The notes: a model not told the origin generated them from the letters alone. 54,467 bases of DNA from Piscinibacter caeni (GCA_003265685.1 KZ836120.1:1-54467), one strand, 5' to 3'; numbered from the stretch's first letter, positions 1,993-38,084 are shown. Numbers and translations: made by a program.

Positions 1993-3030
1993 TCATGGGG
2001 TCATCACTGCCTTCAGGCGCTGCTGCTTGGCGAGCAGTTCGTACAGCGCCGGCGCGTCGGCCAGTCGGCCACGTGCGTCCACCACCACGGTGGGATCGAA
2101 GGCTCCGCTGGTGATCAGCCGCAACAGCTTGCGACGCAGCCGAATGCTGTCGCCGATAGCGAAGCTGAGGGTCATCTCGTCCTTGAACGCGCGGCCGACT
2201 GGAAAGGCCCAGCTTTCTGCTACGTGCGCGCCCACGGAGACGACGCGTCCGCGCGCGCGCGCCAGCGACATTGCGAAGTCGAGCGGGCCATTGCCGCCGA
2301 CCGCCTCGACGACGACCTCGGCACCGTCGCCATCCGTCAGTTTCCGCACCAGCGCCGCGGCGTCGTCCGGGTGCACGGCGACGGATCCCTGGGCAGTCGC
2401 GAACGCCCTGCGCGTTTCGTTGGGTTCGACCAGCACGACAATCCCCGCACCGGCCACCTGCGCCGACAATGCGGCGAGCTGGCCGACCGCGCCGCCGCCG
2501 ATGACTACGACGAAGTCCCCTGCTTGGGTGCTAGCGCGCTCGATCGCGACCCAGCCTGTGGCGAGGTTGTCACCCATCAGCAAGGCTGCTTCCGGTGCAC
2601 ACTGTTCCGGCAATTGGCCCAGGGTCTGGTCGGCAAACGGCACCCGGACGTACTCCGCTTGCGCTCCGGAGAGGCTGGGACCGAATGCGGTGCCCGTGCC
2701 GAAGAAGGCCCGCTCAGTGCACTGCCAGTGTTCGGCTCGATCGCACCAGCGGCACTGGCCGCAGGCAGTGAAATCAGAAGACATCACCTTGTCGCCCAAG
2801 CGAATTCGGTGAACTGCACGACCTACTTCCACGACCTCGCCAACGAATTCGTGCCCAACCACCGCACCCGGCGTGATGCCCGCGAAGTCGCCCTTCACTA
2901 CATGCAAATCCGTGCCGCAGATGCCGGCGTGCGTGACCTTCACAATGGCATCAGTCGCCTCGACAATGTGCGGTTCTGGGACGTCGCTGACTTCAACGTG
3001 CCCGGGGCTCTTGTAGACGACGGCTCGCAT
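1993..3030 (-). CDS. Zinc-dependent alcohol dehydrogenase (MDR family)
   Basis: A 345-residue medium-chain dehydrogenase/reductase. Catalytic zinc ligands are visible as Cys38 (in GICGTDLH) and the His60-Glu61 pair (VGHEF). Four structural-zinc cysteines lie at 90, 93, 96 and 104. The dinucleotide-binding motif GGGAVG is at about 178-183. Length is typical of the family. In a metabolosome such an enzyme usually interconverts aldehyde and alcohol and regenerates NAD+ for the aldehyde dehydrogenase. Here it is the penultimate gene of the minus-strand BMC unit, 34 bases upstream of the regulator start. No clear ribosome binding site precedes its ATG. Just upstream lies the tail of a duplicated outer-membrane protein gene, so its original promoter context may have been altered. 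Substrate is unknown. Confidence 0.9.
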   Translation of the reverse strand: MRAVVYKSPGHVEVSDVPEPHIVEATDAIVKVTHAGICGTDLHVVKGDFAGITPGAVVGHEFVGEVVEVGRAVHRIRLGDKVMSSDFTACGQCRWCDRAEHWQCTERAFFGTGTAFGPSLSGAQAEYVRVPFADQTLGQLPEQCAPEAALLMGDNLATGWVAIERASTQAGDFVVVIGGGAVGQLAALSAQVAGAGIVVLVEPNETRRAFATAQGSVAVHPDDAAALVRKLTDGDGAEVVVEAVGGNGPLDFAMSLARARGRVVSVGAHVAESWAFPVGRAFKDEMTLSFAIGDSIRLRRKLLRLITSGAFDPTVVVDARGRLADAPALYELLAKQQRLKAVMTP

Positions 3031-3068
3031 GAGAATTGTGGTCGACGCGGTATCCGCACTGGCCCCGA

Positions 3069-3232
3069 CGATTCGAGAACGCCGGGACTGATTGTGGCCC
3101 AGGGGCCTCAGAATGCTTTCAGCAAGCGCAAATTGATGCGGTCCGACTCCTTCAGACCGTTGCGCATGGATAAGTCACGTCCATAGAGAGCTGCGAAGTG
3201 CCAGCCGGGCGCGAAGCCCCACCCGAAGCCGA
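3069..3232. repeat. 164-bp direct repeat, left copy
   Basis: This stretch aligns without gaps to 54271-54434 at a constant offset of 51202 bases, with about 88% identity by eye. It contains the last 41 codons of an outer-membrane protein gene on the minus strand plus some 39 bases beyond its stop. The right copy keeps a perfect terminator stem beyond the stop; here that stem is degraded. The same orientation at both ends of nearly the whole window is notable. Confidence 0.9.
3108..3232 (-). pseudogene. C-terminal remnant of outer-membrane protein gene
   Basis: The minus strand reads FGFGWGFAPGWHFAALYGRD, then on to a stop through ...INLRLLKAF. This is the same tail as the outer-membrane protein truncated by the right window edge (54310-54467). 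The terminal Phe and alternating aromatic pattern fit the last beta-strands of an outer-membrane barrel. Nothing upstream of about 3233 continues the barrel; a Leu-rich small ORF in another frame is joined there. It is therefore a detached 3' fragment and not functional. Its presence between the dehydrogenase genes marks a recombination junction. Confidence 0.8.
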
Positions 3233-3345
3233 TATGCCATCAGCAGCAGCAGCAGCAGCATCGCCACCAGCGTCGGTGCTCTGATAAGTCCACCGAACTT
3301 TCGCTCAAGTGCTCCTTTGCAGCGAACCATCGGATCGTTTGTCAT
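3175..3345 (-). pseudogene. Small membrane ORF, 3' end replaced at a junction
   Basis: A start at 3345 has a strong ribosome binding site (AAAGGAG, 6 bases upstream) and lies 37 bases after the malate dehydrogenase stop, so this was probably a real operon gene. The first 37 or so codons encode a basic N-terminus and a Leu-rich segment (VAMLLLLLLMAY) coded by a run of CTG/CAG triplets. At about 3233 the sequence enters the duplicated outer-membrane protein tail in a different frame and the ORF ends in Arg-rich out-of-frame residues. Reading: the 5' part of an unknown small membrane protein gene truncated by the rearrangement. Confidence 0.5.
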
Positions 3346-3382
3346 GCTGTCTCCTTTCGGCCGCACGAACGCGCGGCCCAAA

Positions 3383-4681
3383 TCAGCAAGGGGCCGGGAG
3401 CTCGGCGATCCGCGCGGCGATCCGCGCGGCGGCGTCCTGCAACGCCTGCTGTTCTGCCGGCCGCAGCGTCAGCGGAACGATCTCCTTGAGACCGCGACGG
3501 TGCAGCCGCACGGGCAGCCCGACACGCGTGTCCACCGCCCCATAGGCGCCGCGCGAGCGCACGCACGCGGCGATGACCTCGCCGCTGTCGCGCACCATCG
3601 CGCGCACCATCGTCACGGCCGATTCGGCGGGCGAGAAGTACGCACTGCCCTTTTGCAGCAGCTTGACGACCTCGCCACCCGACTCCCGTGCCCGCTCGAC
3701 CAGGGCCTTGAGCGTCTCGGCGTCGAACATCGACTCGATCGGTCGGTCGCCGACGAAGGCCTGGCTGAGCGGGATCACCATCTCGGGACCGTGACTGCCC
3801 AGCGCGACGGCACGGACCTCCTGCGGTCGCGCCTTGCCCGTCAGGCCGACGAGCGCGCAGAAACGCGCCGAGTCCAGCACACCCGCCATGCCGAGCACGC
3901 GCTCTTCCGGGAAGCCGGTCTGCTGCGCGGCCAAGTGCGTCATTTCCTCGAGCGGATTGCTCACGATCACGAGCGTCGAGTTCGGCGCATGCGTGCGGAT
4001 GCCGCGGCACACCGACGTCATGATCTCGGCATTCACCACCGTCAGGTCGGTCCGGCTCATGCCCGGCTGGCGCGGCTTGCCGGCAGTGATGACGATGTAC
4101 TCGGCCCCGGCCAGTGCTACGAGGTCATCGCTGCCCGACAGCCGCGTGGAGAAGCCGTACAGGCCGGCGCCATGCCACATGTCCAGTGCGAGCCCGGCCG
4201 CCAGCCCCGGCACCACGTCGACAAGCGCCACCTCCGAGAAGAGATCGCTTTCGGCCAGGCGCAGGGCTGTCATTGCGCCCACGTGGCCGGCCCCGACCAC
4301 GCCCGCCTTGGGCCGCCCGTCGACCGCTCGGGAAGATTGTGCACTCGGCCCCAACGCGTTGCGGCGATAAAGAGCACCCGACGGCGGCAGCGCCAGCGGC
4401 CGAGAACCCGTGGCGGCGGGCGGCGCGACCGGAGTCGCCGGGCGTGCAGCGGGCACGGGTGCAGGGGCCGGAGCGGCAAGCGGCGACTTCACGACTGGAG
4501 CCGAAGTCGACGTGGGCGAGGCAGATGGCGTCGATACGCCAGATGACAAACCTGCGGCCTCGACGACGATGCCGAGCTCCCGGGCCCGATCTCGGGCCAG
4601 CGGCGTCAGGCGATCCCCTGCGGCGAGGATCAGCTTGCCACCTGCGGCTTCGACGTCGGCGGCAGTCAGCATGCGGGCCAT
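3383..4681 (-). CDS. Malate/lactate dehydrogenase with BMC-type N-terminal tag
   Basis: A 432-residue protein starting at the ATG that overlaps the BMC-T stop (TGATG). Residues 1-40 contain LTAADVEAAGGKLI and RLTPLARDRARELGI, the kind of motif seen at the N-termini of EutQ and other BMC proteins. About 80 residues of Pro/Ala/Ser-rich linker follow, then a complete NAD-dependent malate/lactate dehydrogenase. Visible there are GAGHVG (nucleotide binding), AGKPRQPGMSRTDL with Arg at the malate-selecting position, SNPLEE, LDSARF (Asp-Arg pair) and GSHGPEM (catalytic His). The substrate-loop Arg favours malate or another dicarboxylate, but this is inference. Likely role: NAD(H) recycling inside the compartment, with the N-terminal module as a targeting element. 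A simple cytosolic dehydrogenase would not need this extension. Confidence 0.85.
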   Translation of the reverse strand: MARMLTAADVEAAGGKLILAAGDRLTPLARDRARELGIVVEAAGLSSGVSTPSASPTSTSAPVVKSPLAAPAPAPVPAARPATPVAPPAATGSRPLALPPSGALYRRNALGPSAQSSRAVDGRPKAGVVGAGHVGAMTALRLAESDLFSEVALVDVVPGLAAGLALDMWHGAGLYGFSTRLSGSDDLVALAGAEYIVITAGKPRQPGMSRTDLTVVNAEIMTSVCRGIRTHAPNSTLVIVSNPLEEMTHLAAQQTGFPEERVLGMAGVLDSARFCALVGLTGKARPQEVRAVALGSHGPEMVIPLSQAFVGDRPIESMFDAETLKALVERARESGGEVVKLLQKGSAYFSPAESAVTMVRAMVRDSGEVIAACVRSRGAYGAVDTRVGLPVRLHRRGLKEIVPLTLRPAEQQALQDAAARIAARIAELPAPC

Positions 4682-5298
4682 CACTTGCCCTCCAGCTGCT
4701 CGATGCAAGCGATGGCCGCGGTAGCCGCCGCCTGCACGTCGCTCTCGGTGCCGGAAATGAACAACCGCCCGAACCGGCCCAGTGCGCGCACTTCCACGAT
4801 GCTGATGTCGGCCGCCTTCTCGGCTTCGTTGGCGGCCAGCGAGACATAGGCGGCCGGAGACACCTCGAGCACGTACAGGCTTTGGCCGGGAATGAGCAGG
4901 TTGCCCTTGCGCCACTTGTTGATCAGCTGAGCCTGGTACGGATTGACGTTCGTCACGAACATCGACGAGGCGACCTTGGGTTTGACCCGGTCCGCCTCGG
5001 TGAGCCTCAGGTGCTCGAGCACGGCGGCTCCGGCCGCAAGCACCTCCGCCTGAGTACGCGAGTGGATCTCGAGTAGCCCGAACTCGCGCTCGACGACCTG
5101 AAGCGCAGGCCGGACATCGGCCGCCTTGAGAGCAATGTCGGCGCAGCGGAAGATCTCGTTGCCCGGCGCGACCTCGATGTAAAGCTCGGACATGCCGGCG
5201 ATGGGCACGTCGCCTTGGCAGGTGGAGGCAACATGCGCCGCCGCCTGCGGCTGCATGCGGTCGACGAAGGCGTAGGTGCGCAGTTGAAAGTTGTCCAT
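4681..5298 (-). CDS. BMC-T trimeric shell protein (tandem BMC domains)
   Basis: A 205-residue protein with two BMC-like halves. The first (about residues 5-95) contains ELYIEVAPGNEIFRCADIAL and ends in a helix with AAVLEHL. The second (about 105-205) contains LYVLEVSPAAYVSLAANEAE, FGRLFISGTESDVQAA and a terminal helix. Tandem BMC domains of this length form trimeric pseudohexamers that often carry a larger gated pore for metabolites or cofactors. The gene sits 3 bases after the EutJ-like gene and overlaps the malate dehydrogenase start, so it is translationally coupled in the minus-strand BMC unit. The halves diverge enough that I cannot assign a known type such as EutL or PduB. Confidence 0.85.
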   Translation of the reverse strand: MDNFQLRTYAFVDRMQPQAAAHVASTCQGDVPIAGMSELYIEVAPGNEIFRCADIALKAADVRPALQVVEREFGLLEIHSRTQAEVLAAGAAVLEHLRLTEADRVKPKVASSMFVTNVNPYQAQLINKWRKGNLLIPGQSLYVLEVSPAAYVSLAANEAEKAADISIVEVRALGRFGRLFISGTESDVQAAATAAIACIEQLEGK

Positions 5299-5301
5299 GG
5301 C

Positions 5302-6126
5302 TCAGCTCAGTGCAATTCCAAAGGGAGTGATCAGCTCGGCGTGTTCATAGCCCTGGACCTTCCAGCCTAGATATCGCGCGATAACGGCATCGGCGCCGGG
5401 GATCTGCAGGGCGCCGCCTGCCAGGTAGACGGTACCGGGGTCCTGTCCGGCGCATTGGCGCCGGACGGACTCGGCGACGCGCTCGATGCCCGGACGCAGC
5501 AGTTGCATGACTTCTGCACCGTGCTCGCGCTTGTGCACCTCGGCGACCTCGACAGGAAGCTTCAGTGCGCCGGCGAGGATCAGATCGAGGTGATGGCCGC
5601 CACCTGCGAAGTCGCTCAGGGTGGCGAGTTCGCCGCCACGGAAGACGCCGACGCCGGTCGAGCCGCCACCCACGTCCACGACCGCACCATCTTTGACTTG
5701 CAGGATGGCGTTCGCCGCAGTGACCTCGTCGACGAGGCTGCGACAGTCGATCCCCGCCTGCTGCAGCACGAAGGCACAGGCACGGCAGTCACTCACCGGC
5801 ACTGCCGGCGGATGCGCGGTTGCCGCTGCTTCGATCTCCATCCCGAGTGCCGCTTCACTGCTGGCCTTCAGCTGCCGTACCGCCTGCACTGCGCCATGAA
5901 AGTCGACCACGACTCCGTCGCGGACGACCTGGGCGCTGATGAAATCCCAGTACACAGGCTCACCCTGCGCGTCCACGGCAGCGATCACGACGGTCGCCGT
6001 GCCGAGGTCCACCCCGAAGCGCAGCGGCACCTGCGGCGTCGACGGTTCGCGCAGACGCGCAGCGGCGCCGTCCAGGAAGCGCTGCACACGCGCCAAGCCA
6101 GTGTCGGTCTGGGTTCGCATGAGCAT
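5302..6126 (-). CDS. EutJ-like Hsp70/actin-fold ATPase
   Basis: A 274-residue protein of the EutJ family. ATPase signatures are FGVDLGTATVVIAAVDAQG (phosphate 1), AVVDVGGGSTGVGVF (phosphate 2) and YLAGGALQIPG (adenosine). It lacks the substrate-binding domain of DnaK, as EutJ does. The start ATG directly follows the aldehyde dehydrogenase TAG. EutJ proteins are conserved in many ethanolamine-type compartments and are thought to act as chaperones, though their exact role is unsettled. Presence beside an aldehyde dehydrogenase and shell genes supports a metabolosome rather than a carboxysome. Confidence 0.85.
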   Translation of the reverse strand: MLMRTQTDTGLARVQRFLDGAAARLREPSTPQVPLRFGVDLGTATVVIAAVDAQGEPVYWDFISAQVVRDGVVVDFHGAVQAVRQLKASSEAALGMEIEAAATAHPPAVPVSDCRACAFVLQQAGIDCRSLVDEVTAANAILQVKDGAVVDVGGGSTGVGVFRGGELATLSDFAGGGHHLDLILAGALKLPVEVAEVHKREHGAEVMQLLRPGIERVAESVRRQCAGQDPGTVYLAGGALQIPGADAVIARYLGWKVQGYEHAELITPFGIALS

Positions 6127-7524
6127 CTACAGCCCCATCGTCGGCAGGTAGATGTCGCGCCAGGGGCGGTTCTGGTGGGCGACGCGCTTGATGTTAATGA
6201 GATGCATCGGCGTGACGTTGTCCGACACGATCGAGCCACTCCACGTGCCCGTGCCCAGCATGAACGACGGATCGGTGCCGGCGCTGAAGCCCATGCCGCC
6301 GAGTAGGCTCGGCGTGTTGACGACGATGCGCGAGGCTGGCAGGTCCGACATGCGCGCCACCATCTCCGCGTCCTGGCCGTGCAGACCGAGCGTGTGGCCC
6401 TCACCGCCGAAGGCCAGCACCTCGCGGCAGCGCTGATGTGCGGCGCCAAGATCGCGTGTCCGATAGAACGACAGCACGGGTCCGAGGATCTCGGCTGACA
6501 GCGGTGTCTGCGGACCCACGTCGTCCAGCGCGGCGCCGAGCACCTTCGTCCCGGGTGGCACGGTCATGCCGATGCGCCGGGCCAGCTCGGTCGCGGTCTG
6601 ACCCACAGCCTCCGGATTGAGCGCCCCGCGCCCGATAAACAGCAGCTCGGTCAGCCGGCGCTGCTGCTCGGCGTCGAGGAACACGGTGCCATGCTGCTCG
6701 AAGGCCTTGATGGCAGCGTCGGCGATCGGCTCATCGAGCACCACCGACTGCTCCGCAACGCAGGCGGTGCCGTTGTCGAACGACTTCGACGTGATGACCA
6801 TCAGCGCCGCTTCCGACACGTCCGCCACCGAACGATGGATGTAGACCGGGACGTTGCCGGCGCCGACGGCCAGCGTAGGCTTGCCCGAGGAGTAGGCAGC
6901 CCGGACCATCGCAGCCCCGCCGGTCGCCATAACGAGCGCGGTGTCGCGGTGCGCCATCAGCTCGCGCGTGGCGGGCAGCTGGCCGCCAGACAGGCACTGC
7001 AGCAGGCCGATCGGCGCGCCGGCGCGCTCGGCCGCCTCGGCCATGATCTCCACGGTCCGCACGCAGCACTTCGCCGCCCGCGGATGCGGCGCGCAGACGA
7101 TCGCGTTGCCCGCCTTGACCGCCGCCAGGCACTTGAAGATCGTCGTCGAGGTGGGATTGGTCACCGGGATGATCGCGGCGATCACGCCCATGGGCGCACC
7201 GATCGCCGTCACGCGTGCCACCTCGTCGGTCCACAGCACGCCCAAAGTGCGCATCTTCTTCATCGCATGCGCGCAGAACTTGGCGTTGTAGAGGTTCTTG
7301 AGGATCTTGTGCTCGTACACCCCGTAGCCGGTCTCGTCGACTGCCAAGCGCGCCAGTTCCGCCGCCGCCGCCTCTGCAGCCTGGCCCATGGCATCGACGA
7401 TTCGGTCGGCCTGCTCCTGGGTGACACCCTGGAAGGACTCGAAGGCTTGGCGGGAGAGCTGCGCTTTGGTGCGCGCCTCGCCGATCGCCACGAGTTCTGG
7501 ATCTAGAAGGTTGAAGTCGGTCAC
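6127..7524 (-). CDS. CoA-acylating aldehyde dehydrogenase of the BMC
   Basis: A 465-residue EutE/PduP-type enzyme that oxidises an aldehyde to an acyl-CoA with NAD+. The catalytic Cys is Cys255 in SKSFDNGTACVAEQS, the pattern of CoA-acylating members. Other family motifs are AAIIPVTNPTSTTIFK and GPVLSFYRTRD. The start is GTG at 7524, five bases beyond the stop of a 52-aa ORF, with the EutJ-like gene abutting its stop. This is the core oxidative enzyme of the compartment. There is no PduL- or Pta-type phosphotransacylase in the window, so the acyl-CoA presumably leaves the shell as such or is used by another CoA enzyme. 2-Hydroxyisobutyraldehyde is one conceivable substrate given the mutase cluster nearby, but nothing in the sequence proves it. 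Confidence 0.92.
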   Translation of the reverse strand: MTDFNLLDPELVAIGEARTKAQLSRQAFESFQGVTQEQADRIVDAMGQAAEAAAAELARLAVDETGYGVYEHKILKNLYNAKFCAHAMKKMRTLGVLWTDEVARVTAIGAPMGVIAAIIPVTNPTSTTIFKCLAAVKAGNAIVCAPHPRAAKCCVRTVEIMAEAAERAGAPIGLLQCLSGGQLPATRELMAHRDTALVMATGGAAMVRAAYSSGKPTLAVGAGNVPVYIHRSVADVSEAALMVITSKSFDNGTACVAEQSVVLDEPIADAAIKAFEQHGTVFLDAEQQRRLTELLFIGRGALNPEAVGQTATELARRIGMTVPPGTKVLGAALDDVGPQTPLSAEILGPVLSFYRTRDLGAAHQRCREVLAFGGEGHTLGLHGQDAEMVARMSDLPASRIVVNTPSLLGGMGFSAGTDPSFMLGTGTWSGSIVSDNVTPMHLINIKRVAHQNRPWRDIYLPTMGL

Positions 7525-7528
7525 ATCG

Positions 7529-7687
7529 TTACCTGCTGCTCGTCACCCGCTGCAACCCACGAAGCCGGGCGACGTCCTCGCGGATCAGGCCGCGGACGAT
7601 CGCCTTGAACTTGTGGTCGTGGCAATGCCGTATCGCCCACAGGGTGCGCAGGCAGTCGCGCGCCCTTTCGCAAACGCTTGTCGCCAT
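7529..7687 (-). CDS. 52-residue small ORF between BMC-H and aldehyde dehydrogenase
   Basis: An ATG at 7687 opens a 53-codon frame filling the gap between two certain genes: it begins 12 bases after the BMC-H stop and ends four bases before the aldehyde dehydrogenase GTG. The product is basic and Cys/His-containing (MATSVCERARDCLRTLWAIR at the start, then HCHDHKFKAIVRGLI). The helical pattern could be amphipathic. No distinct ribosome binding site is seen, so coupling to BMC-H translation is likely if it is expressed. It could be a cargo adaptor or assembly peptide, but no family is recognised. The alternative is non-coding spacer. Confidence 0.45.
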   Translation of the reverse strand: MATSVCERARDCLRTLWAIRHCHDHKFKAIVRGLIREDVARLRGLQRVTSSR

Positions 7688-7699
7688 CACGCAAGCGCA

Positions 7700-8017
7700 T
7701 CAGCGCGGCTTGGGCAGGATGCCTTCGACGTCTTCGTGCGGGCGCGGGATCACGTGCACCGAGACAATCTCGCCGATCTTCCCGGCAGCGGCCGCGCCGG
7801 CATCGGTCGCGGCCTTCACCGCGCCGACGTCGCCGCGCACCATCACGGTAACAAGGCCGCCACCGATCTGCTCGCGCCCGACCAGCCGCACGTTGGCCGC
7901 CTTGACCATCGCGTCGGCGGCCTCGATCGCGCCGACCAGACCCTTGGTCTCGATCAGCCCGAGCGCGCCGCGCGGGCCGTCGTTGACCGCGCCGGTCGTG
8001 GTGGGGTTCGTTGCCAT
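7700..8017 (-). CDS. BMC-H hexameric shell protein
   Basis: A 105-residue single BMC-domain protein (Pfam BMC). Family features are [20 protein letters not shown], then MVKAANVRL, a GGG pore-loop region ([10 protein letters not shown]), [17 protein letters not shown] and the C-terminal [10 protein letters not shown]. Length is typical. It lies 39 bases after the pentamer gene in the minus-strand unit. It differs from the BMC-H at 13800-14102 mainly in a longer N-terminus and a different pore-side sequence, so the shell probably mixes two hexamer types. Confidence 0.95.
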
Positions 8018-8056
8018 TTCAGTATCTCCTTCGGGGGTTGAAAGTGCGCCAGCGGC

Positions 8057-8368
8057 CTAGCGCTTCTGGAAAGTGGTTTCGCCGTCGAACTGAACCGAGT
8101 CGACAATCGCGATGACGGCGGCGTCGGTGGGAGCGTTGTGTCCGTCCGAATCGACGCGCGCGGCGCTGCCCAGCGTCACGAGCACGATTTCTCCAACGCC
8201 GGCACCGGCCAGGTCGATCGCGACGTAGGTGGACGACGGTTCGACGCCGTCGGCGTCGTCCTGCGGTGCCGAGGCCCGCACCGGCTCGACCAACAGAAGC
8301 TTGTGCGATGCCAGACCGGCGGCCTTGATCGATGCGACAACGTTGCCGCGAACGCGAGCCAGCTGCAT
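8057..8368 (-). CDS. EutN/CcmL-type pentameric vertex protein (BMC-P)
   Basis: A 103-residue protein. I chose the ATG at 8368 because GGAG lies nine bases upstream and because pentamer proteins begin MQLARVRGNVVAS. Typical motifs are KLLLVEPV, YVAIDLAGAGVGEIVLVTLG (the conserved Gly-rich turn) and a C-terminal APTDAAVIAIVDSV. Pentamers close the vertices of the shell. This is the first gene of the minus-strand BMC unit and diverges from the plus-strand unit over a 200-base intergenic region. A frameshifted second copy is at 30553-30869. Confidence 0.93.
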   Translation of the reverse strand: MQLARVRGNVVASIKAAGLASHKLLLVEPVRASAPQDDADGVEPSSTYVAIDLAGAGVGEIVLVTLGSAARVDSDGHNAPTDAAVIAIVDSVQFDGETTFQKR

Positions 8369-8568
8369 CGTGCCTGTCTCCGTATCTGTTTTGGGAATGG
8401 ACTGAACGTTAGAGGGCGCGCAGTGCGGCGTCATTGGCCAGCGTGGAAGGTCAAAGGGGGGCTCCGTTGTCCATGCCGCCCCTGGTGGTCACCGTTCGCC
8501 GCCCCTAGAGTTGCCCCAGAGTTCGCAAGAACGAGCCTGCGTGCGCAAGGACCAAACGGAGACACGAC
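8369..8568. promoter_or_regulatory. Divergent control region of the two BMC units
   Basis: 200 bases separate the pentamer gene (minus) from the CrtC/AttH-like gene (plus). Parts of it recur around the eroded second copy. The pentamer side (TTTTGGGAATG and GCGGCGTCATTGG) matches 30902-30943. The plus side (CCGCCCCTAGAGTTGCCCC) resembles GCCGAGGCCATAGTTCCC near 30970 and GCCATGGCTATAGCTCCGG near 36510. Conservation after the flanking genes diverged suggests promoter or operator elements, probably targets of the GAF/PucR regulators. No convincing sigma-70 pair was found, so start sites are not assigned. Confidence 0.5.
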
Positions 8569-9567
8569 GTGATCAAGGATCAGGACGCGGAATTCCACGT
8601 CACCGACTCGGACCCGACCTGGGCTGAGACGAACTTCTTCGGCTTCTTCAACGCCGAGCACAAGCTGAACGTGGGCGTGTATGCGCTCTTCCGGCCGAAC
8701 CTTGGCGTCGTCAGCTCCACGATCTGTATGAATTCGGGCCGCGCCGTCACGCCCTGGGAAGCGGACTTCTGCGATCTGCGCTCCGCGATGCCGATCCCGA
8801 CGCCGCGCTCGCTGCTGGACTACAAGCTGCTCAACACGCTGCACGTGCACTGCCTGGATCCGAACCGCGTCTGGCACATCGGCTATGACGACCAGCAGGG
8901 CACACGCATCGATGTGCGCTACGAAGCGCTGATGCCGGCGTTCGACATCCATGACCCAGAGATGGACCCGATGTGCGGCTCCGAGAGCGAGGCAGGCAAG
9001 TTCGCCTGGGGTACCGCGTACGACGGCCACTTCGACCAGACCGGCCACTTCAAGGGCAGCGTGGCAATCCGCGGACGCGAGGTGCCGATCGACTGCGTCT
9101 CGACGATGGACCACAGCTGGGGGGCCCGTCCCGAGCGTGGCAAGCCCAACATGAGCTGGTTGCACGCGCACTTTTCGAAGGACCTGGCCGTGCACGGCAT
9201 CTTCGGGTTCGACCAGACGCGCAATGGCGTCGAGCTCTGGCTCGCCCATGGCTACGTGATGGAGCGCGGCCGCATCGTCGGGCTGAAGGCCGGCACGGGA
9301 CAGGTCGAGCGCCCGCAGGAACGCTACCCCGAGCAGCTGCAGCTGCAGGTGACGGACGCCAAGGACCGCGTCTGGAAGCTGCGCGGCCGTGCGCTGACCA
9401 CGTTCCCGTGGCAGTGCTGGCCCAACATGATCTCTTTCAACTCCTTGTGCGCGTGGGAGATGAACGGCTTGAAGGGTCACGGCGAGGTCCAGGACTTCTT
9501 TGAACTGCCGCAACTGAACGCGCTGAACAGCGTCGAGTCCACGCGCCGCCCGTCACGTCCCCTCTGA
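8569..9567 (+). CDS. CrtC/AttH-like protein with DHSWGxR motif
   Basis: A 332-residue protein starting at GTG 8569 with GGAG nine bases upstream. It contains AETNFFGFFN, IDVRYEALMPAFDIHDPEMD, DGHFDQTGHFKGSV and the signature STMDHSWGAR. The HSWG motif occurs in lipocalin-like beta-barrel proteins of the CrtC/AttH (hydroxyneurosporene synthase-like) group; this assignment is from memory and only moderate. It is the first gene of the plus-strand BMC unit, so it is probably structural to the pathway. A close paralogue lies at 36604-37608. It could be a hydratase/isomerase or a binding protein; no catalytic residues can be named. Confidence 0.7.
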   Translation: MIKDQDAEFHVTDSDPTWAETNFFGFFNAEHKLNVGVYALFRPNLGVVSSTICMNSGRAVTPWEADFCDLRSAMPIPTPRSLLDYKLLNTLHVHCLDPNRVWHIGYDDQQGTRIDVRYEALMPAFDIHDPEMDPMCGSESEAGKFAWGTAYDGHFDQTGHFKGSVAIRGREVPIDCVSTMDHSWGARPERGKPNMSWLHAHFSKDLAVHGIFGFDQTRNGVELWLAHGYVMERGRIVGLKAGTGQVERPQERYPEQLQLQVTDAKDRVWKLRGRALTTFPWQCWPNMISFNSLCAWEMNGLKGHGEVQDFFELPQLNALNSVESTRRPSRPL

Positions 9568-9600
9568 CGTCCAACGAACCGAAAGGAGCCGAGGTACGCC

Positions 9601-10575
9601 GTGACCCGCGCGATCCTGTTCGACCTCGATGGCACGCTCGTCGACACGCGAGCCGCGTCATGGCAGTTGTTCTCTGAGACGAATCTCGCGTTCGCACTCG
9701 GAATCGACTCACGCGAGGCCTTCTTCCGGGCCTTCGAAGGCAACTTCTTCGAGTCCCTGGCCAAGCTCTGCCCCGATCCGCAGCGCGCCGCGGCGGTCAA
9801 GGCACACTTCATGGAGCTGCTGCGCACGCGCTACCACCCGGCACTGATCCCGGGCATGGTCGACGTGGTGCGCGCGCTGGCGCCTCACAGCACGCTGGCC
9901 GTCATCTCGACGAACGGCATCGAGGCGATCCGTCGCATTCTGGTCGGTGCCGATCTGGCCAACTGCTTCTCGCACGTCTTCTCAGGTGACGTGGAGCCGC
10001 GCAAGGCGGTTTCGATCCGCCGTTTTCTCGGGGACCACCGCTATGCGGTGCACCGCGCCTGCTCGCCGGCCTATCACGATGGCGAAGCCAGCCACGCGTC
10101 GCTGCAGGCGCAGGATGTCGTGTTGGTCACCGACACCGTCGGAGACGTCCGGGAGGCCCGCGAAGCCGGCATCCGCGCGATCGGCGTGACCTGGGGCATG
10201 CACAGCGAACGCCAATTGCTCGATGCCGGCGCCGAACGCGTGGCGCTGTGGCCGCAGGAACTGGTCGCCTGGCTGCGCGACGCCGATGCGCCTGCGACGA
10301 GTTGCGGCTGCTCGAGCGGGTCGGCAGACAGCTGCGCATTGCCGCCAGCACCAGCGCCTGCTGTCCGCGCTGCAGCCGCGCCACCAACGGGCGACCCAGT
10401 GAGAGAGGTGGCGCGCCATCGCCGCGAACGCCAGCTTCACACCCGCTTGCAGGCCGCTGCCGCGACAGCTCCTGCGGCACCCGGCGCCAGCATGGCCTCG
10501 GCAGCGTCCGGCCCGAGCGCACGCACCGAGCTGATGTCCTCGCTGCAACGAATCCTGAGAGAAGGAGACCACTGA
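9601..10575 (+). CDS. HAD-family phosphatase with candidate encapsulation tail
   Basis: A 324-residue protein starting at GTG 9601. Residues 1-230 form a HAD hydrolase: DLDGTLVDT (nucleophile and acid Asp), VISTNG (motif II), the Lys in VEPRKAVS (motif III) and VTDTVGDVREA (motif IV). Usual phosphoglycolate-phosphatase-like proteins are 210-240 residues. Here about 90 extra residues follow: a Cys/Ser/Ala/Pro-rich linker and a terminal stretch (ARTELMSSLQRILREGDH) with amphipathic-helix character. That arrangement matches encapsulation peptides that dock enzymes into BMC shells (inference). It presumably dephosphorylates a pathway intermediate made by the phosphotransferase downstream. A broken paralogue lies at 37617-38084. 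Confidence 0.85.
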   Translation: MTRAILFDLDGTLVDTRAASWQLFSETNLAFALGIDSREAFFRAFEGNFFESLAKLCPDPQRAAAVKAHFMELLRTRYHPALIPGMVDVVRALAPHSTLAVISTNGIEAIRRILVGADLANCFSHVFSGDVEPRKAVSIRRFLGDHRYAVHRACSPAYHDGEASHASLQAQDVVLVTDTVGDVREAREAGIRAIGVTWGMHSERQLLDAGAERVALWPQELVAWLRDADAPATSCGCSSGSADSCALPPAPAPAVRAAAAPPTGDPVREVARHRRERQLHTRLQAAAATAPAAPGASMASAASGPSARTELMSSLQRILREGDH

Positions 10576-10653
10576 GCGGCACACAACAGATCGCCTAGAC
10601 GTCGAGGGCTCAGCCAGCGAACACCCTCCCTACCTCAAGACCAGGGAGACACC

Positions 10654-10935
10654 GTGAAGTCATTGTGGAAGGCTTCAACAGCTTCGAGACTTCGACGAGG
10701 CCGGACGATCTTCCTCGCCCCGGCGCTGAGCATGGGTGTAGCGGCGCAGTCACGCTGCCGGAAACCCCCGAGTCGCACGTCGGGAGCCTCTCGCGCGAGT
10801 TCCAGATCCTGCGCCCGACGACGAGAGACCGCGATTCGCACTTTGAAATGATGAGCAAGGCGGCGCTGGACGGCAAGCGTGGGCAGCTCAACTGCGAGGG
10901 CAGCCGAGCTGGGGCAGGTTGTGCTGGTGGACTAA
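10654..10935 (+). pseudogene. Frameshifted ORF of unknown function in BMC unit
   Basis: A GTG at 10654 has the same GGGAGACACC leader style as its neighbours, and a plausible stop in the same frame lies at 10933-10935 (AAELGQVVLVD then stop). Between these, the natural-looking protein sequence (EGFNSFETSTRPDDLPRPG and HFEMMSKAALDGKRGQLN) lies in a different frame, while the starting frame hits a stop at 10851. Two compensating shifts would be needed to restore one protein of about 90 residues. It may be an eroded gene or carry sequencing errors. No family is recognised. Confidence 0.4.
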
Positions 10936-10957
10936 CAACAACGATCGGAGACAACAC

Positions 10958-11272
10958 ATGGACTATCAGAAACAGAAACGCGACCAGCCCGCCGACGACG
11001 GGCTGCGCTTGCAGGGCCCGACCTACGTCGGCCACTTCAATGACTTGCCGCCTGTTCTGGACGGAATCCTCGGCAACGGCATGATGAGAGCGCGCACGAA
11101 GGGCAAGACCCGCATGAAGGTCAGCAGGGCGAATGTGCTGTGCGACCAGCTCACGATCCCCGAGCTGAACGACCTCAATGACCAGCGTGCGTGGAACACC
11201 TACGACGTGGCCGTGATGCGCGCCAACGAGAGTGGCCCCGGAATGAGCCCGCGCCAGGAGAGCACGACATGA
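10958..11272 (+). CDS. 104-residue protein of unknown function, coupled to the dikinase
   Basis: The ATG at 10958 is preceded by CGGAGACAACAC, a good ribosome binding site, and the stop overlaps the dikinase start (ATGA). The protein is hydrophilic and charged, with GLRLQGPTYVGHFNDLP, a basic segment around TKGKTRMKVSRANVL and an acidic ELNDLNDQRAW. There is no signal peptide or membrane segment. Its coupling suggests a small subunit or accessory factor of the phosphotransferase. No homology is recognised, and no counterpart is seen in the second gene copy at 36-41 kb. Confidence 0.65.
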   Translation: MDYQKQKRDQPADDGLRLQGPTYVGHFNDLPPVLDGILGNGMMRARTKGKTRMKVSRANVLCDQLTIPELNDLNDQRAWNTYDVAVMRANESGPGMSPRQESTT

Positions 11273-13803
11273 AGGCGCAGGGCTCCGCCGCGTCGGCGCC
11301 AGCCGTCGACGCTCCCTGCCTTGTCCACCTGATCCAGGAGATCGACGGCATGGACACGGCGAAGTTCGGTGGCAAGGCCGCGGGACTGGCACGCATGGCC
11401 GCCGCTGGTATTCCCGTTCCGCCGGCTTTCGTCATCGGCACGGACGCCTACCGCGCCTTCCGCGATTCCGGCGATCTGCCAGAGAACCTGATGCCCCAGG
11501 TCGATCGTGCGATGCGCGTGCTCGAGGGTCACACCAGCCGCTCGTTCGGCGGTCTGAGCGCGTTGCCGCTGCTCGTATCCGTGCGGTCGGGGTCGCAGGT
11601 CAGCATGCCTGGCATGATGGACACGGTACTGAACCTGGGCATCACCTGTCGTGGCGCGCAGCGCCTGGCGCAGGAGACCGGCAACGCCGACTTTGCCGTC
11701 GACACCTGGGTGCGCTTCTGGCGCATGTTCGCCGAGATCGTGCTGGACCTGGAGGCCGAGGTGATCGAGCACGCGGTTGTATCGCTGTTGGACCAGACGC
11801 GCCGTGAGCCCTCCGAGGAGAACTTCCTCCGGCTGGAGACCGCCGTTCTCGGCGCGATCGTTGCGCAAGGCGTCAACGAGGTCAGCGCCGATCCGGCCTG
11901 GCAACTGCGTCGGGCAATCGCCGCCGTGTTCGAGTCCTGGGACAGCCGGCGCGCGCGCGCCTATCGCGCGCACCACAAGATCTCCGACGAACTGGGGACC
12001 GCAGTAACCGTGCAAGCGATGGTCTTCGGCAACCTGGACAGCCGCTCGGGCTCCGGAGTCGCCTTCACCCGCAACCCGAACACCGGTGCGCGCGAGTTGT
12101 ACGGCGAGTTTCTCGCCGGCCGCCAGGGCGAGGACCTGGTGTCCGGCTCTGCCACGCCGTCGCCGCTCGGGGCACCCGGCGGGCTGTCCGAGGCCCATCA
12201 CCGCGAATTGGCCGACCACGGGCATCGCCTCGAGGAGATGTACGGCGACGCGGTGGACATCGAGTTCACCGTCGAAGGCGACCGCCTCTATTTCCTGCAG
12301 GTCCGCCCTGCCAAGCGGACAGCGGCAGCGGCCGTCCGGATTGCCACCGAGCTGGTCGACGAAGGCATGCTGGGCCGTGCCGCGGCGTTGAAGCGGGTCA
12401 GCGTCGAGCAGCTCAAGAAGCTGCTGCGACCCGCTTTCGAACCCGATGTGCTGGTACGAACCCGTCCGCTGCTTGAAGGGATCGGGGCCAGTCCCGGACA
12501 CGCCTACGGCATTGCCGTGCTGGATGCGGACCGTGCGGCAACAGTGGCGGCCTCGGGCGAGCGAGTAATCCTGGTGCGCCCCACAACCAGTCCGCAAGAC
12601 ATCCGCGGGATGTTGGCCTCGCGGGCCATCGTCACGGCCAAGGGCGGCGCGCTCAGTCACGCCGCAGTGGTCTCCCGTGCGCTCGACGTTCCGTGTGTGG
12701 TCGGCTGTGAGGCCATGGAGGTCGACCTCGCTGCGCGCAGCTTCACCGTCGGCGATGAGCGCCTGGAGGAAGGTGCTCCGCTTTCCGTGGACGGTGCGAC
12801 GGGCAAGGTGTACAGCGGCCTGCTTCCGCTGGAGCCGGCTTCGCAGGCGACCGAACAGATCGACCGCTTGCTCGTCTGGGCAGACGATCGCACCCAAGCG
12901 TCGTTCTGGGCAGGCAGTGTCGGCGCCGCGGATGCGCAGACCGCACTGCGACAGTCACCTCGCGGCTTCGGCGTCGTGGCGCTGACGGAGCTGATGATCG
13001 CCGACGAGACGCTGGGCGACTTTATCGATGCGGTCAACGACCTCGGGCAGCAACCCGACCGGAAGTCGACGCAGGATCGGCTCGCCTGTCTTGCCTACCA
13101 GGCTTGCCAGCGGCTGATGCTCGAGTCGGCCGGCACGCCGATCGACCTGCGTCTGCCCAACCTGGGTTCGCCCCGGGCGCAGCGCATGATCGGCAGTTGG
13201 GCATCGCTTGCACCGCGGCTGTTTCTGCCGCTGGGTCTCAAGGGCCTGTACGTGGCGCTGCTTCGCGGCATTGCGGATGCCGCTCGCGAGACCGGTCATG
13301 CGCAGACCACGCCGCTGGTGCCCGGCATCACGGCCGCATCCGAACTGCAGGCCTTCAAGCGCGCCGCAGCGGGCCTCGGACTGAACCAGGTCGGCGTGGT
13401 CCTGCAGAGCCCCGCCGGCATTGCGGAGGCGCACGGCATCGCCGAAGGCGCCAGCGCGGTCTGGGTCGACCTGCGCGAGATCATCAGGACGTACTACGGC
13501 TATCCGAGCGCGCTGTCCTTCGCCGACGACGTCTTCGAAACTTATGTCGCTGACGGGTACTTGGCGCACAACCCGCGGACGGCCTTGGGCAGCAAGCTCG
13601 CCGAGTTGTTCGCGGGCGTCGCGGCGGTGGCGGCGCACCGGCCGGAGGTGCGCATCGGCGTCGAATGCGGCGATGGCGCCGCGCTCAGCTTGGTCGAGGA
13701 TCTGTACCGCAGCGGCGTTCGCTTGTTTTCGCTGCCCACCACGGCGCTGCCCTCGGCACGTCTGGCGCTCGGGCAACTGGTGGTCAAGGAGTCATCGACA
13801 TGA
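11269..13803 (+). CDS. Pyruvate phosphate dikinase homologue with degenerate C-terminal domain
   Basis: An 844-residue protein. The N-terminal ATP-grasp domain is well kept: [18 protein letters not shown], then [20 protein letters not shown] and [20 protein letters not shown]. The swivelling phosphohistidine domain has His464 in [14 protein letters not shown]. The C-terminal pyruvate/PEP barrel is recognisable but eroded at its active site: the family RTEHMF is absent, EIPRA reads QSPAG, TNDLTQ reads VDLREI, and the CGEHGG motif with the catalytic Cys reads ECGDGA. ATP-driven histidine phosphorylation therefore looks possible, but standard pyruvate chemistry does not. By analogy with PEP-synthase-derived phosphotransferases such as phenylphosphate synthase, it may phosphorylate another hydroxyl or enol substrate (inference). 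It is coupled to both neighbours by ATGA overlaps. Confidence 0.85.
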
Positions 13804-14102
13804 GTGAACTGAGTCAACTGAGAGGCAGCGCCCTCGGCTTTGTCGAGACGCAGGGGAAGACGGCGGCGACACTGGCCGCCGACGCGATGGTCAAGGCAGC
13901 GAACGTCCGGCTGCTGACGATGCAACAGCCCGGGGGCGGCATCATCACAATCATCGTGCGCGGAGACGTCGGTGCCGTGAAGGCCGCTGTCGACGCGGGC
14001 GAGGCGGCGGCCAAGGTGGTCGGCAAGGTGCGCTCGGCGCACGTCATTCCACGGCCGCACGACGACGTGGAAGACCTCCTCGAGCGTCCGCCCGTCCGCT
14101 GA
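13800..14102 (+). CDS. BMC-H hexameric shell protein, second type
   Basis: A 100-residue BMC-domain protein starting at the ATG overlapping the dikinase stop. Motifs are [62 protein letters not shown] and the tail [20 protein letters not shown]. It is clearly homologous to the shell protein at 7700-8017, with a shorter N-terminus. Co-translation with the dikinase homologue ties that enzyme to the compartment. The C-terminal 23 residues have a degraded counterpart at 41236-41307. Confidence 0.95.
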
Positions 14103-32460: not shown

Positions 32461-33625
32461 TAGTGTCCCGTCCCGCAAATAACTGGCATTAAACATGCAT
32501 GCCAGTGCGGTATCTTGGAACCGGAGATACCGTGATGAGAACGGGCAGGCCGAAGGCGGAATTGGTGTTGAGCGTCGACGAGCAAGCGCAGCTGCAGTCG
32601 TTCGCGCGCAGCCGCTCGCTGCCCGCCGCGCTGAGCAATCGCGCGCGCTTGGTGCTGGCCAGCGCCGCGGGCGAGCCGAACAACGCGATCGCCGCGCGGC
32701 TGAAGATGACCAAGCAAACCGTTGGCAAGTGGCGCGCGCGGTTCATCGAGCGGCGCGTCCCCGGCCTGTACGACGACGTGCGCCCGGGCAAGCCGCGCAC
32801 GATCGACGATGAGCGCGTCGCGCAGTTGATCAAGACGACGCTGCACACCAAGCCGGCCAACGGCTCGACGCACTGGAGCGTGCGCACGGTGGCCGCCGAG
32901 ACGGGCATCTCCAAGACCAGCGTGCAGCGCTACTTCCAGCTCTTCGGCCTGCAGCCGCACCGCAGTGAGGGCTTCAAGCTGTCCAACGACCCGTTCTTCA
33001 TCGAGAAGCTGCGCGACGTGGTCGGCCTGTACCTGAGCCCGCCGGACAACGCGCTGGTGATCTGCGTGGATGAGAAGAGCCAGTGCCAGGCGCTGGAGCG
33101 CACGCAGCCGATGCTGCCCATGGGGTTCGGCTATGTCGAGGGCGTCACCCACGACTACAAGCGCCACGGCACGACCACGCTGTTCGCAGCGCTGAACGTG
33201 CTCAACGGTGCAGTGCTGGCAGCGTGCAAGCCGCGCCACCGGCACCAGGAGTTCCTCGCCTTCCTGCGCGAGATCGACAAGGCGGTGCCGGCTGAGTTGG
33301 ACGTCCACTGCATCGCCGACAACTACGCCACCCACAGCCACCCGAAGATCAAGGCTTGGCTTGCAACCCGGCCGCGCTGGCACATGCACTTCATCCCGAC
33401 CTACAGCTCCTGGCTGAACCAGGTCGAACGATTCTTCTCGCTGATCACCGACAAGGCCATCCGCCGCGGCTCGTTCACCAGCGTCAAACAACTCGTGCAG
33501 CGCATCGATCACTTCGTCACCGCGCATAACGCGAACTGCCAGCCGTTCAAGTGGACCGCCACCGCAGATTCGATCCTCGAAAAGCTCCATCGACTTTGCT
33601 CACGTATCAGCGGGACAGGACACTA
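32461..33625 (+). mobile_element. IS630-family insertion sequence
   Basis: Terminal inverted repeats TAGTGTCCCGTCCCGC (32461-32476) and GCGGGACAGGACACTA (33610-33625) match at 15 of 16 positions and bracket one transposase gene. TA at both ends fits the TA target duplication of this family. The element appears complete. Its right TA is part of the CTAG target of the IS5-family element that inserted next to it. Confidence 0.92.
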
Positions 33626-33626
33626 G
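32499..33626 (+). CDS. IS630-family transposase
   Basis: A 375-residue protein (a start 12 codons downstream at 32535, MRTGRPKAEL, is equally possible). It has an N-terminal helix-turn-helix (AARLKMTKQTVGKWRARF) and a second winged part (RTVAAETGISKTSVQRYFQL). The DDE catalytic residues are in VICVDEKSQCQ, CIADNYATHSH and SSWLNQVERFFS. The frame is intact, so the element could be active. The stop uses the last bases of the inverted repeat. Confidence 0.92.
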   Translation: MPVRYLGTGDTVMRTGRPKAELVLSVDEQAQLQSFARSRSLPAALSNRARLVLASAAGEPNNAIAARLKMTKQTVGKWRARFIERRVPGLYDDVRPGKPRTIDDERVAQLIKTTLHTKPANGSTHWSVRTVAAETGISKTSVQRYFQLFGLQPHRSEGFKLSNDPFFIEKLRDVVGLYLSPPDNALVICVDEKSQCQALERTQPMLPMGFGYVEGVTHDYKRHGTTTLFAALNVLNGAVLAACKPRHRHQEFLAFLREIDKAVPAELDVHCIADNYATHSHPKIKAWLATRPRWHMHFIPTYSSWLNQVERFFSLITDKAIRRGSFTSVKQLVQRIDHFVTAHNANCQPFKWTATADSILEKLHRLCSRISGTGH

Positions 33627-33838
33627 CAGGCTGTTGAATTTCGGGCGCGCAAGCGCCGATCAGTAGTTCCGATGGTGCCGTTCAGGCCAGGAACACGCTC
33701 GGCGTGCGGCTGATCGGTTCGAAGGCAGGCGGCTGGCGCTCGTCAGGGGATGCGCGCGGGCTTCGCAACGGCTCATGGAAGCACTCCTTGCGGCCCGGTA
33801 CACAGTATTCGCGCCATCCGGACGATGTTGCTGGCCGT

Positions 33839-37616: not shown

Positions 37617-38084
37617 GTGCAGCGCGCCATCTTCTTCGAGATGGATGACACCCTGGTGGACACGCGCACCGCATCGTGGAAGCTGTTCGCGCAGACGAAC
37701 AGCGAGCACGGTCCGGGCATCCACACTCGGCTTGCATCCTCCGCCATCTTCGAGGACAGTTTCCTCGAGTCGCTGACGCGGCACTGCTCGCCTCCATCGC
37801 ACCCTGCCTTTCAAACGAGTTTTCGGGCGACGTGCAGCCGCGCAAGGCCAAGTCGATGCGCCGCATCTTCGGGTACCACCGCTACGTCGCGCAGCGTTGC
37901 TGCAGCACGGCCTACCGCGAGGACGCGCCGGGCGGGGATATCCGCGGCGCACGGCCGCGGACGCCCAGGTGATTCAGGCGCCGCGCCGCGTGACCCTGAG
38001 GCCGGCGTGAAGGCGCAGCGGCGCGCTGGGTGGGCTGGCGCTGAACTCGTCGCCACGCGCCGCCCGCGCGACCACTCGCCGTAG
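37617..38084 (+). pseudogene. Decayed HAD phosphatase, paralogue of 9601-10575
   Basis: From GTG 37617, VQRAIFFEMDDTLVDTRTAS matches VTRAILFDLDGTLVDTRAAS of the intact copy, with the nucleophile Asp replaced by Glu. After FEDSFLESLTRHC about 70 residues are missing. Similarity resumes in another frame with FSGDVQPRKAKSMRRIFGYH and fades. It is non-functional, and the gene order CrtC-like then HAD repeats that of the first locus. Confidence 0.85.

Follow-up and report, generated by a model that had tools for sequence, protein, structure and literature searches.

Bacterial microcompartment (BMC) loci of the type Metabolosome with an Incomplete Core 1 (MIC1) were catalogued with neither a function nor a signature enzyme in the available text of Axen et al. 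(2014; PMC4207490). Their described features are an aldehyde dehydrogenase (AldDH), Zn-type and lactate/malate-type dehydrogenases, a hydrolase, a phosphatase and an MreB-like protein, with no phosphotransacylase (PMC4207490), and one CcmP homolog as the BMC-T shell protein (PMC5853799, available in part); a 2021 catalog uses MIC as a group for loci that lack a defining feature (PMC8217296, also in part). No paper giving MIC1 a function was found in the literature searched, most subscription papers being outside its coverage. Here we describe a locus of this kind at positions 1993–14102 of a 54,467-nucleotide stretch from Piscinibacter caeni (GCA_003265685.1 KZ836120.1:1-54467; "the window" means this whole stretch). 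We favor, with moderate confidence, a reading in which the locus builds a compartment in which a soil bacterium finishes the breakdown of small branched alcohols: 2-methyl-3-buten-2-ol (MBO) would be phosphorylated, and prenal, a toxic aldehyde, would then be made and used inside the shell.

The window matches plasmid RPME01 of Methylibium petroleiphilum PM1 at 100.000% identity over bases 1–46411 and at 99.991% over 43511–54467, and start sites were taken from the PM1 annotation wherever the longest frame disagreed. A first-pass annotation, made from the sequence alone, had listed a shell set of two BMC-H, one BMC-T and one BMC-P protein with an AldDH, EutJ, a Zn-dependent alcohol dehydrogenase (Zn-ADH), a malate-dehydrogenase-like (MDH-like) protein, a HAD phosphatase and a dikinase homolog. 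All were present by profile matches, and, as it had also said, the locus proteins scanned included no diol dehydratase, glycyl-radical enzyme, ethanolamine lyase, aldolase or phosphotransacylase. The features are as follows.

1958–3, minus strand: PucR/GAF-type regulator, the second one in the window, left of the Zn-ADH gene and cut by the window edge.
1993–3030, minus strand: Zn-ADH, candidate prenol dehydrogenase (PF08240/PF00107).
3383–4681, minus strand: protein with a lactate/malate dehydrogenase fold and an N-terminal extension of ~120 amino acids (PF00056/PF02866 from residue 130 on), candidate for NAD recycling.
4681–5298, minus strand: BMC-T shell protein, CcmP type (PF00936; NF053796 CcmP, 255 bits).
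5302–6126, minus strand: EutJ/MreB-like protein (NF011660 EutJ, 306 bits against a cut-off of 182, E 2e-91).
6127–7524, minus strand: CoA-acylating AldDH, proposed prenal dehydrogenase (TIGR02518, E 6e-147; motif GTACVAEQ).
7700–8017, minus strand: BMC-H shell protein 1 (PF00936, E 9e-30).
8057–8434, minus strand: BMC-P shell vertex protein (PF03319 EutN_CcmL, E 2e-24).
8569–9567, plus strand: DUF7064/7065 protein, copy A, proposed tertiary-alcohol-phosphate lyase or mutase (Pfam; predicted fold).
9601–10575, plus strand: HAD phosphatase (PF13419) with a C-terminal tail of ~100 amino acids, a putative encapsulation tail.
~10656–10901, plus strand: remnant of PEPm (PEP-utilizer mobile domain) with a deletion and a frame shift (tblastn with the intact PEPm of locus L048, E 3e-20, the second piece in another frame).
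10958–11272, plus strand: fragment of gene X, 104 amino acids corresponding to the first ~100 of ~470 residues (51% identical to residues 14–109 of Rhodococcus oxybenzonivorans X).
11269–13803, plus strand: PPDK-like dikinase component, DIK (PF01326, PPDK_N E 4e-44; PF00391; C-terminal part without a Pfam match).
13800–14102, plus strand: BMC-H shell protein 2 (PF00936, E 6e-27).

By its gene content the locus fits MIC1. It has the AldDH, the lactate/malate-type and Zn-type dehydrogenases, a HAD hydrolase/phosphatase and a EutJ/MreB-like protein (PMC4207490, in its available text, does not identify the genes behind its terms hydrolase, phosphatase and MreB-like), a single BMC-T with CcmP as its best model, below that model's cut-off, and no phosphotransacylase among the scanned proteins of the locus, the only place where this enzyme was sought. 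The first-pass claim that the locus matches no described metabolosome type is therefore not supported. The locus departs from the canonical metabolosome core, in which an AldDH, an alcohol dehydrogenase, a phosphotransacylase and a signature enzyme share one locus, in that it lacks phosphotransacylase and its signature module is incomplete in the window. It also goes beyond the description of MIC1, which holds no signature enzyme or function, whereas we propose a signature module here that is complete in relatives and decayed in the window. All three PF00936 matches in the window's own genome lie within 1993–14102.

Between the HAD and dikinase genes, the first-pass annotation had overlooked the broken PEP-utilizer gene and the 104-amino-acid X fragment. 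The DUF7064 protein served as the query for relatives of the locus (12 loci, each given an L number), and plasmid records were searched as well, 3 of the 14 with DUF7064 being opened; eight MIC1-type shell loci were compared (L047, L048, L049, L050, L051, L052, L059 and L060, the last being the window). The gene caller was crude and missed genes, for example the DIK of L042. The order DUF7064-HAD-PEPm-X-Z-DIK-BMC_H is complete in L048, from a metagenome-assembled genome (MAG), and in L050 (Variovorax sp. Sphag1AA), and plasmid pRB98 of R. oxybenzonivorans (L059) carries the same six genes in two blocks flanking the shell and dehydrogenase genes. Contig ends cut L051 after X, L052 within PEPm and L049 within HAD; X lies on other contigs of these genomes, complete for L049 and L052 and cut by a contig end for L051, and DIK is also found on other contigs of all three, in two pieces for L052. 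In all eight fetched MIC1-type loci, DUF7064 and HAD come after shell genes. L053 and L062 have all six module genes and no shell gene in their stretches; shell absence in L053–L056 and L062 refers to the retrieved stretches.

PEPm is a free PEP-utilizer mobile domain with a histidine motif, X has ~470 amino acids (the window copy has no Pfam match) and Z has ~190. In R. opacus B4, PEPm, X and Z form one 793-amino-acid protein, with a separate dikinase gene ~7 kb away, which argues for joint action. X was present in 15 of 15 genomes or records chosen through DUF7064; the dikinase match spans DIK end to end in 10 of them; in the other 5 it is limited to the initial two thirds, and ordinary PPDK relatives cannot be distinguished there. 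At E 1e-15, X was found in 1 of the 398 genomes of a phylum sample, the window's own. A dikinase search in 399 genomes of the order gave matches in 51; the own second copy (contig C119) and genome G347 were read further, and the others, judged by match length only, were classed as ordinary PPDK or partial matches. The trees of DUF7064 and X give no clear answer on a single clade of shell loci. A contig titled as a Klebsiella pneumoniae MAG (L055) has the module and a P450 gene, and its kin are environmental proteobacteria; the label may be a misassignment.

The module resembles the two-component dikinases PpsAB, CreHI and HpeHI, which phosphorylate small molecules and carry the ATP-grasp and His domains on separate chains (PMC12167813, available in part), and rifampin phosphotransferase, in combining an ATP-grasp component (PF01326 in DIK) with a swiveling phosphohistidine domain (PF00391 in DIK and PEPm, with SH motifs). 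It differs in that DIK, laid out as ATP-grasp plus phosphohistidine domain, has its own His domain with an SH motif and is joined by three further components, and in that no relation of X to a known acceptor domain was recognizable. A truncated PPDK-like protein, VadK, is described in PMC13400623; the present reading does not draw on it.

The AlphaFold model of DUF7064 copy A (pLDDT 90) points to the chemistry. In a Foldseek search against the PDB, ranks 1–5 were all 25-phosphosteroid lyase (25-PSL; 9fzn, 9g4c, 9g2i) with E 4e-14 to 1e-12 and TM 0.61–0.67, the best match being 9fzn (E 4e-14, TM 0.65/0.61, 16% identity). Kievitone hydratase and AttH followed, and the match to AttH 2ich (TM ~0.6) bears out the "CrtC/AttH-like" label of the first-pass annotation. 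A DUF7064 profile run against PDB chains gave no lyase chain at E 1, the presence of 9fzn in that set being unchecked. In sterol degradation, 25-hydroxysteroid kinase (25-HSK) phosphorylates the tertiary C25 alcohol and the lyase eliminates the phosphate (PMC8449060, PMC11061730, each available in part). Because of this fold match and this chemistry, a tertiary-alcohol phosphate is a natural guess for the DUF7064 substrate. The Sterolibacterium pair would share with the present system the ATP-driven activation of a tertiary alcohol as a phosphate ester. As described in the available text, 25-HSK differs in being monomeric and ADP-forming and in hardly acting on tert-butanol, and 25-PSL in giving an alkene, with no compartment described; its identity to DUF7064 in structural alignment is 15–16%.

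The PM1 Rieske oxygenase gene corresponds by order to Mpe_B0555, which we take to be the gene for MdpJ; MdpJ is encoded on the PM1 plasmid, and the window's own genome has a copy on contig C119, 99.99% identical to that plasmid. To go by the title of a 2012 paper by Schuster and colleagues, MdpJ reportedly converts tert-amyl alcohol to MBO. Mpe_B0555 is listed as tert-butyl alcohol hydroxylase (PMC4517660, available in part), and MBO may be isomerized to prenol in strains L108 and PM1 by enzymes described in 2016 as "so far not characterized" (PMC4791888, available in part). The module can be compared with the MdpJ tert-amyl-alcohol pathway, whose MBO-to-prenol step has no characterized enzyme in PMC4791888: MdpJ is on the same plasmid, and genes for MdpJ-like Rieske oxygenases adjoin module genes in two shell-less genomes (57% identical and directly after X in L054, 60% and directly after Z in L056, with no adjoining DIK).

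The HAD phosphatase separates shell loci from shell-less ones. All eight full-length HADs of shell loci (seven distinct; 310–332 amino acids) carry a tail of ~80–110 residues, whereas those of the five shell-less loci have 216–244 amino acids and an extra end of at most ~20 residues; the length comparison excludes the L049 HAD (272 amino acids, contig end), and the counts of shell and shell-less HADs also exclude L057 and L058 (33–37% in DUF7064) and L061. DUF7064, X and DIK show no length difference between shell and shell-less loci. As the long tail is limited to shell loci and the other module proteins are unchanged in length, phosphorylation and rearrangement would take place outside the shell, and dephosphorylation and oxidation inside. 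Tyrosine-type phosphatase genes lie by dikinase modules or MdpJ in four loci (L050 17317–18036, L061 14412–15245, L070 13446–14297, L091 28322–29095) and are perhaps an alternative to HAD.

The residue before the catalytic cysteine of the AldDH is alanine in all eight MIC1-type loci (L047–L052, L059 and L060, the window); it is isoleucine in the aligned 5j78, 3k9d and 6ahc and valine in L006 and L007, and the aldehyde dehydrogenases (ALDHs) of L053 and L062 are of another kind and outside this count. Alanine before cysteine is the trait named for CoA-acylating prenal dehydrogenase in the title of Becher et al. 2018 (FEBS Lett 592:1150), and the window AldDH may be that very enzyme. Prenal dehydrogenase of this type oxidizes prenal to 3-methylcrotonyl-CoA (PMC6300920, available in part). 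A class-wide AldDH search (matches in 5 of 274 genomes at E 1e-80) also brought up a BMC in genome G190 (L005/L040), rejected as a MIC1 locus because it is of another type; L040 8205–15183 holds an Ala-Cys AldDH (52% identical), a CcmP-like BMC-T and MDH-like, glutamine-synthetase-like and FAD-oxidoreductase genes.

Genes for carboxylase beta and alpha subunits and MaoC stand beside the shell genes in L059 and 2–7 kb upstream of DUF7064 in L053, which also has HpcH/HpaI lyase and CoA-transferase genes. The L059 beta subunit scored 1010 bits with AccD1, 999 with a carboxyl transferase, 793 with methylcrotonyl-CoA carboxylase (MCC) 3u9r and 495 with geranyl-CoA carboxylase; of the entries named propionyl-CoA carboxylase, one scored 787 and the others 291 or less. 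Two carboxylase-beta homologs (72%) are encoded in the own genome. In L062, ADH, ALDH and AMP-ligase genes follow the module with no shell gene in the stretch, and this looks like a free-acid version of the same route. The Zn-ADH gene was found, 54–100% identical, in seven of the eight fetched MIC1-type loci, the L049 stretch stopping short of it. The nearest solved relative of the MDH-like protein is malate dehydrogenase 1guz, with which it aligns at conserved Arg and His positions that we take to be catalytic; on this alignment it could, speculatively, recycle NAD inside the shell through the oxaloacetate/malate couple. A piece related to its N terminus is encoded by a gene of its own in R. 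oxybenzonivorans (57% across 30 residues).

A second module (module B) lies 22 kb from the compartment locus, and its genes, all on the plus strand, are as follows.

36604–37608, plus strand: DUF7064/7065 protein, copy B, 70% identical to copy A.
37617–37921, plus strand: what is left of a second HAD gene, split over two frames and interrupted by a gap (52% and 57% identity to HAD A by tblastn).
38179–39426, plus strand: X439, an intact divergent X, proposed substrate-binding component (30% to L050 X).
39463–39924, plus strand: Y153, adjoining X439, no Pfam match; PM1 only in the plasmid collection, and also in the Methylibium MAG RBC061.
39946–40395, plus strand: intact PEPm, mobile phosphohistidine domain, motif ESHLGIV (PF00391).
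40496–41068, plus strand: Z193, small component after X in related loci (37% to the R. oxybenzonivorans protein behind X).
41359–43641, plus strand: PucR/GAF-type regulator of module B (window gene scan).

The losses are reciprocal: PEPm, X and Z are broken or gone in the compartment locus (module A), where Z was not found between HAD and DIK in the window or PM1, and HAD is broken in module B. Compared with L048, dN/dS is 0.54 for the X fragment, 0.12 for DUF7064, 0.22 for HAD, 0.10 for DIK and 0.11 for BMC-H2. Because DIK A is constrained although its neighbors have decayed, it probably works with module B, which would supply the compartment with PEPm, X and Z. The first-pass annotation had allowed for a signature enzyme encoded elsewhere, and this may be partly so: PEPm, X and Z are intact at 38.2–41.1 kb and broken or gone locally, and a supply from there is what we propose. 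The MAG RBC061 has the X fragment and X439 ~25 kb apart, with module B proteins 92–99% identical over the retrieved stretch and an X439 copy at 97.6%. Leaving out that of PM1, plasmid X genes reach at most 31% identity with X439. No X439-like second copy is present in G1024–G1027, G1032 and pRB98, six genomes or records that have a locus-type X; weak X paralogs number one in G1026 and three in pRB98.

The route that we propose would run as follows. A split dikinase, made up of DIK, the second phosphocarrier PEPm, the substrate component X and the small Z, would phosphorylate the tertiary hydroxyl of MBO using ATP; DUF7064 would then ionize the C–O–phosphate bond, and the phosphate would return to the primary carbon (an allylic shift) to give dimethylallyl phosphate. 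This ester would enter the shell, where HAD, held inside by its C-terminal tail, would release prenol. The Zn-ADH would convert prenol to prenal and the Ala-Cys AldDH prenal to 3-methylcrotonyl-CoA, so that free prenal would stay in the lumen; the MDH-like protein may re-oxidize NADH with oxaloacetate, and 3-methylcrotonyl-CoA would exit to methylcrotonyl-CoA carboxylase and the leucine route. In the PM1 lineage, in which the local PEPm, X and Z are broken or lost, the module at 36.6–41.1 kb would provide them. The weakest points are MBO as the substrate and the allylic shift. What the sequences show is gene content and order, homology, gene remnants, the selection pattern and a fold match; each reaction, the substrate, the encapsulation and the supply from module B are deduced from these. 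The idea of the first-pass annotation that the aldehyde arises through a phosphorylated intermediate probably stands in this form, with the dikinase followed by DUF7064 and HAD; no such scheme was seen in the available metabolosome texts. Going further, and tentatively, MIC1 could be a hemiterpene (tertiary-alcohol) metabolosome, in which a charged phosphate ester, made outside by a four-component dikinase, crosses into the shell and is unmasked by a lumenal phosphatase; the alcohol and prenal would then arise only inside the shell. In the PM1 lineage, two half-decayed plasmid modules would complement each other.

Several observations weigh against the MBO-to-prenal route. The product of 25-PSL is an alkene, and the allylic shift is our own extension of its chemistry. 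MdpJ-type genes adjoin only two of the five shell-less loci (L055 stops right behind X and is uninformative), and none lies by shell loci in the retrieved stretches. The X structure model is poor (pLDDT 48), so we make no claim on its fold, and an X profile against PDB chains gave no match at E 1, including none to a known acceptor domain. Against L047, with few changes, dN/dS of the X fragment is 0.36, equal to that of BMC-H2. Fourteen plasmid records match DUF7064 and eight match X439, a single divergent query, with four in both, so DUF7064 and X are less firmly linked on plasmids. X439 is ~30% identical to other X proteins and sits on a long branch, and contig C119 has a second full-length DIK paralog, 40% identical, in the MdpJK cluster (L039, G000:C119, 3251–5821); the divergence of X439 and this second DIK near MdpJ, which PM1 has as well, suggest that module B may serve a different reaction or substrate. 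The X loci of R. opacus and the second one of R. oxybenzonivorans look like other pathways. The Ala-Cys motif is not decisive for prenal, because the AldDH of L040, in a BMC of another type, has it too. MCC-type genes stand by two loci, and neither plasmid RPME01 nor plasmid PPGU19_p2 has any. The HAD tail end was more amphipathic than shuffles (under 5%) in just two of six tested. Finally, the best NCBIfam models fit below their cut-offs, CcmP (NF053796) for BMC-T with 255 bits against 340 and acetylating acetaldehyde dehydrogenase (TIGR02518) for the AldDH with 490 bits against 620. The MdpJK cluster on C119 also holds Ldh-family, hydroxyisobutyrate-dehydrogenase-like and histidine-phosphatase-like genes.

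Some of these points would fit the same phosphorylation chemistry acting on another tertiary or allylic alcohol (tert-amyl, tert-butyl or a terpenoid), with another branched aldehyde in the compartment. The families of X, DIK and DUF7064 are wider than MIC1, X439 is strongly unlike the X of complete loci, module B lies beside 2-hydroxyisobutyryl-CoA mutase genes, and the Ala-Cys motif occurs outside MIC1. We consider this unlikely, yet worth keeping in mind, since the L059 carboxylase is MCC-type and not geranyl-type and the trait named for prenal dehydrogenase is found in 8/8 MIC1-type AldDHs.

It is improbable that DUF7064 instead eliminates phosphate to an alkene (isoprene or isobutene), with HAD clearing by-product esters and the aldehyde coming from elsewhere. 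The closest fold is indeed that of a phosphate-eliminating lyase, but the restriction of the long HAD tail to shell loci suits a lumenal substrate, and the ADH, ALDH and ligase genes that accompany the module in L062 suit an alcohol product.

An ethanolamine-type compartment, in which EutBC from another contig makes acetaldehyde, the EutE/EutJ/EutM-like genes handle it and the dikinase set is a passenger, is still harder to credit. A EutB-family gene does exist at G000:C37:13275–14570 (716 bits, with a positive E. coli control), which counts against prenal as the aldehyde; a EutC-like frame lies next to it (L092, G000:C37:8000–20500, genes at 4399–6607), and the best NCBIfam model of the AldDH is acetylating acetaldehyde dehydrogenase TIGR02518. 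The AldDH, however, is under the TIGR02518 cut-off, and the residue ahead of its Cys is Ala, not Ile; selection constrains DUF7064, HAD and DIK; and the 12.5 kb around EutB gave no match to shell proteins or other query proteins from the window or R. oxybenzonivorans. Most Pseudomonas, Xanthomonas and Ralstonia use ethanolamine and are not known to enclose its breakdown in a shell. PM1 EutB groups with the EutB of these genera (PMC3542024, available in part). The genome-wide search for signature enzymes covered EutB and the diol dehydratase large subunit; the latter gave no match in the genome, but control genomes gave none either.

That the dikinase and DUF7064 genes are peripheral and another enzyme makes the aldehyde is very improbable: the local X, PEPm and Z have decayed or disappeared, but DIK, HAD and DUF7064 A are constrained (dN/dS 0.10–0.22 against L048), the end of DIK overlaps the start of BMC-H2, and DUF7064-HAD keeps its place after the shell genes. 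The least probable reading, a compartmentalized phenol or ketone dikinase pathway as in Hpe, Cre and Pps, shares the domain logic of PpsAB/CreHI/HpeHI (PMC12167813, available in part) and has a counterpart in the second R. oxybenzonivorans X locus, but the scanned genes of the locus include no aromatic-ring enzyme, the fold match of DUF7064 speaks for a tertiary phosphate, and the neighbors are MdpJ and MCC. Two further ideas, acetone activation by way of an enol phosphate and phosphonate cleavage by HAD, were weighed and set aside. That second locus (L091, NZ_CP021355.1, 11812–29095), with X, PEPm and dikinase genes, also carries biotin carboxylase, carboxyltransferase, thiolase and tyrosine-type phosphatase genes and looks, by gene content, like a kinase-carboxylase-phosphatase pathway of the Hpe kind.

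Elsewhere in the window, a 2-hydroxyisobutyryl-CoA mutase set (B12 subunit, ligase, MeaB and mutase) lies at 44507–54248 with two PduO-type adenosyltransferases, a ThDP enzyme, a gamma-carbonic-anhydrase-family protein and a 3-hydroxybutyryl-CoA dehydrogenase. Cobalamin synthesis and uptake genes occupy ~17–28 kb and are separated from module B by three transposase genes (IS630-, IS256- and DDE-type) at 32499–35745. A 169-bp repeat, 90% identical, is found near both window ends (3064–3232 and 54266–54434) and is possibly a mobile-element or recombination remnant; 3381–3480 resembles a stretch by the MdpJ contig. The own assembly comprises 310 contigs and 6.87 Mb, and we take the PM1 genome to be smaller; for this reason the RPME01-type plasmid may sit in a host other than PM1, and recent transfer between fuel-oxygenate degraders is possible.

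Within the literature searched, neither the function proposed here nor the proposed signature module had been described before. If the route from MBO to prenal is correct, one gene set would answer both what MIC1 does and which enzymes take MBO to prenol in fuel-oxygenate degraders. It would also mean an ATP-driven entry of tertiary alcohols into metabolism and would add a four-component member to the small-molecule dikinases. For microcompartments, it would introduce a new cargo logic, in which the substrate enters as a phosphate ester and is unmasked inside.

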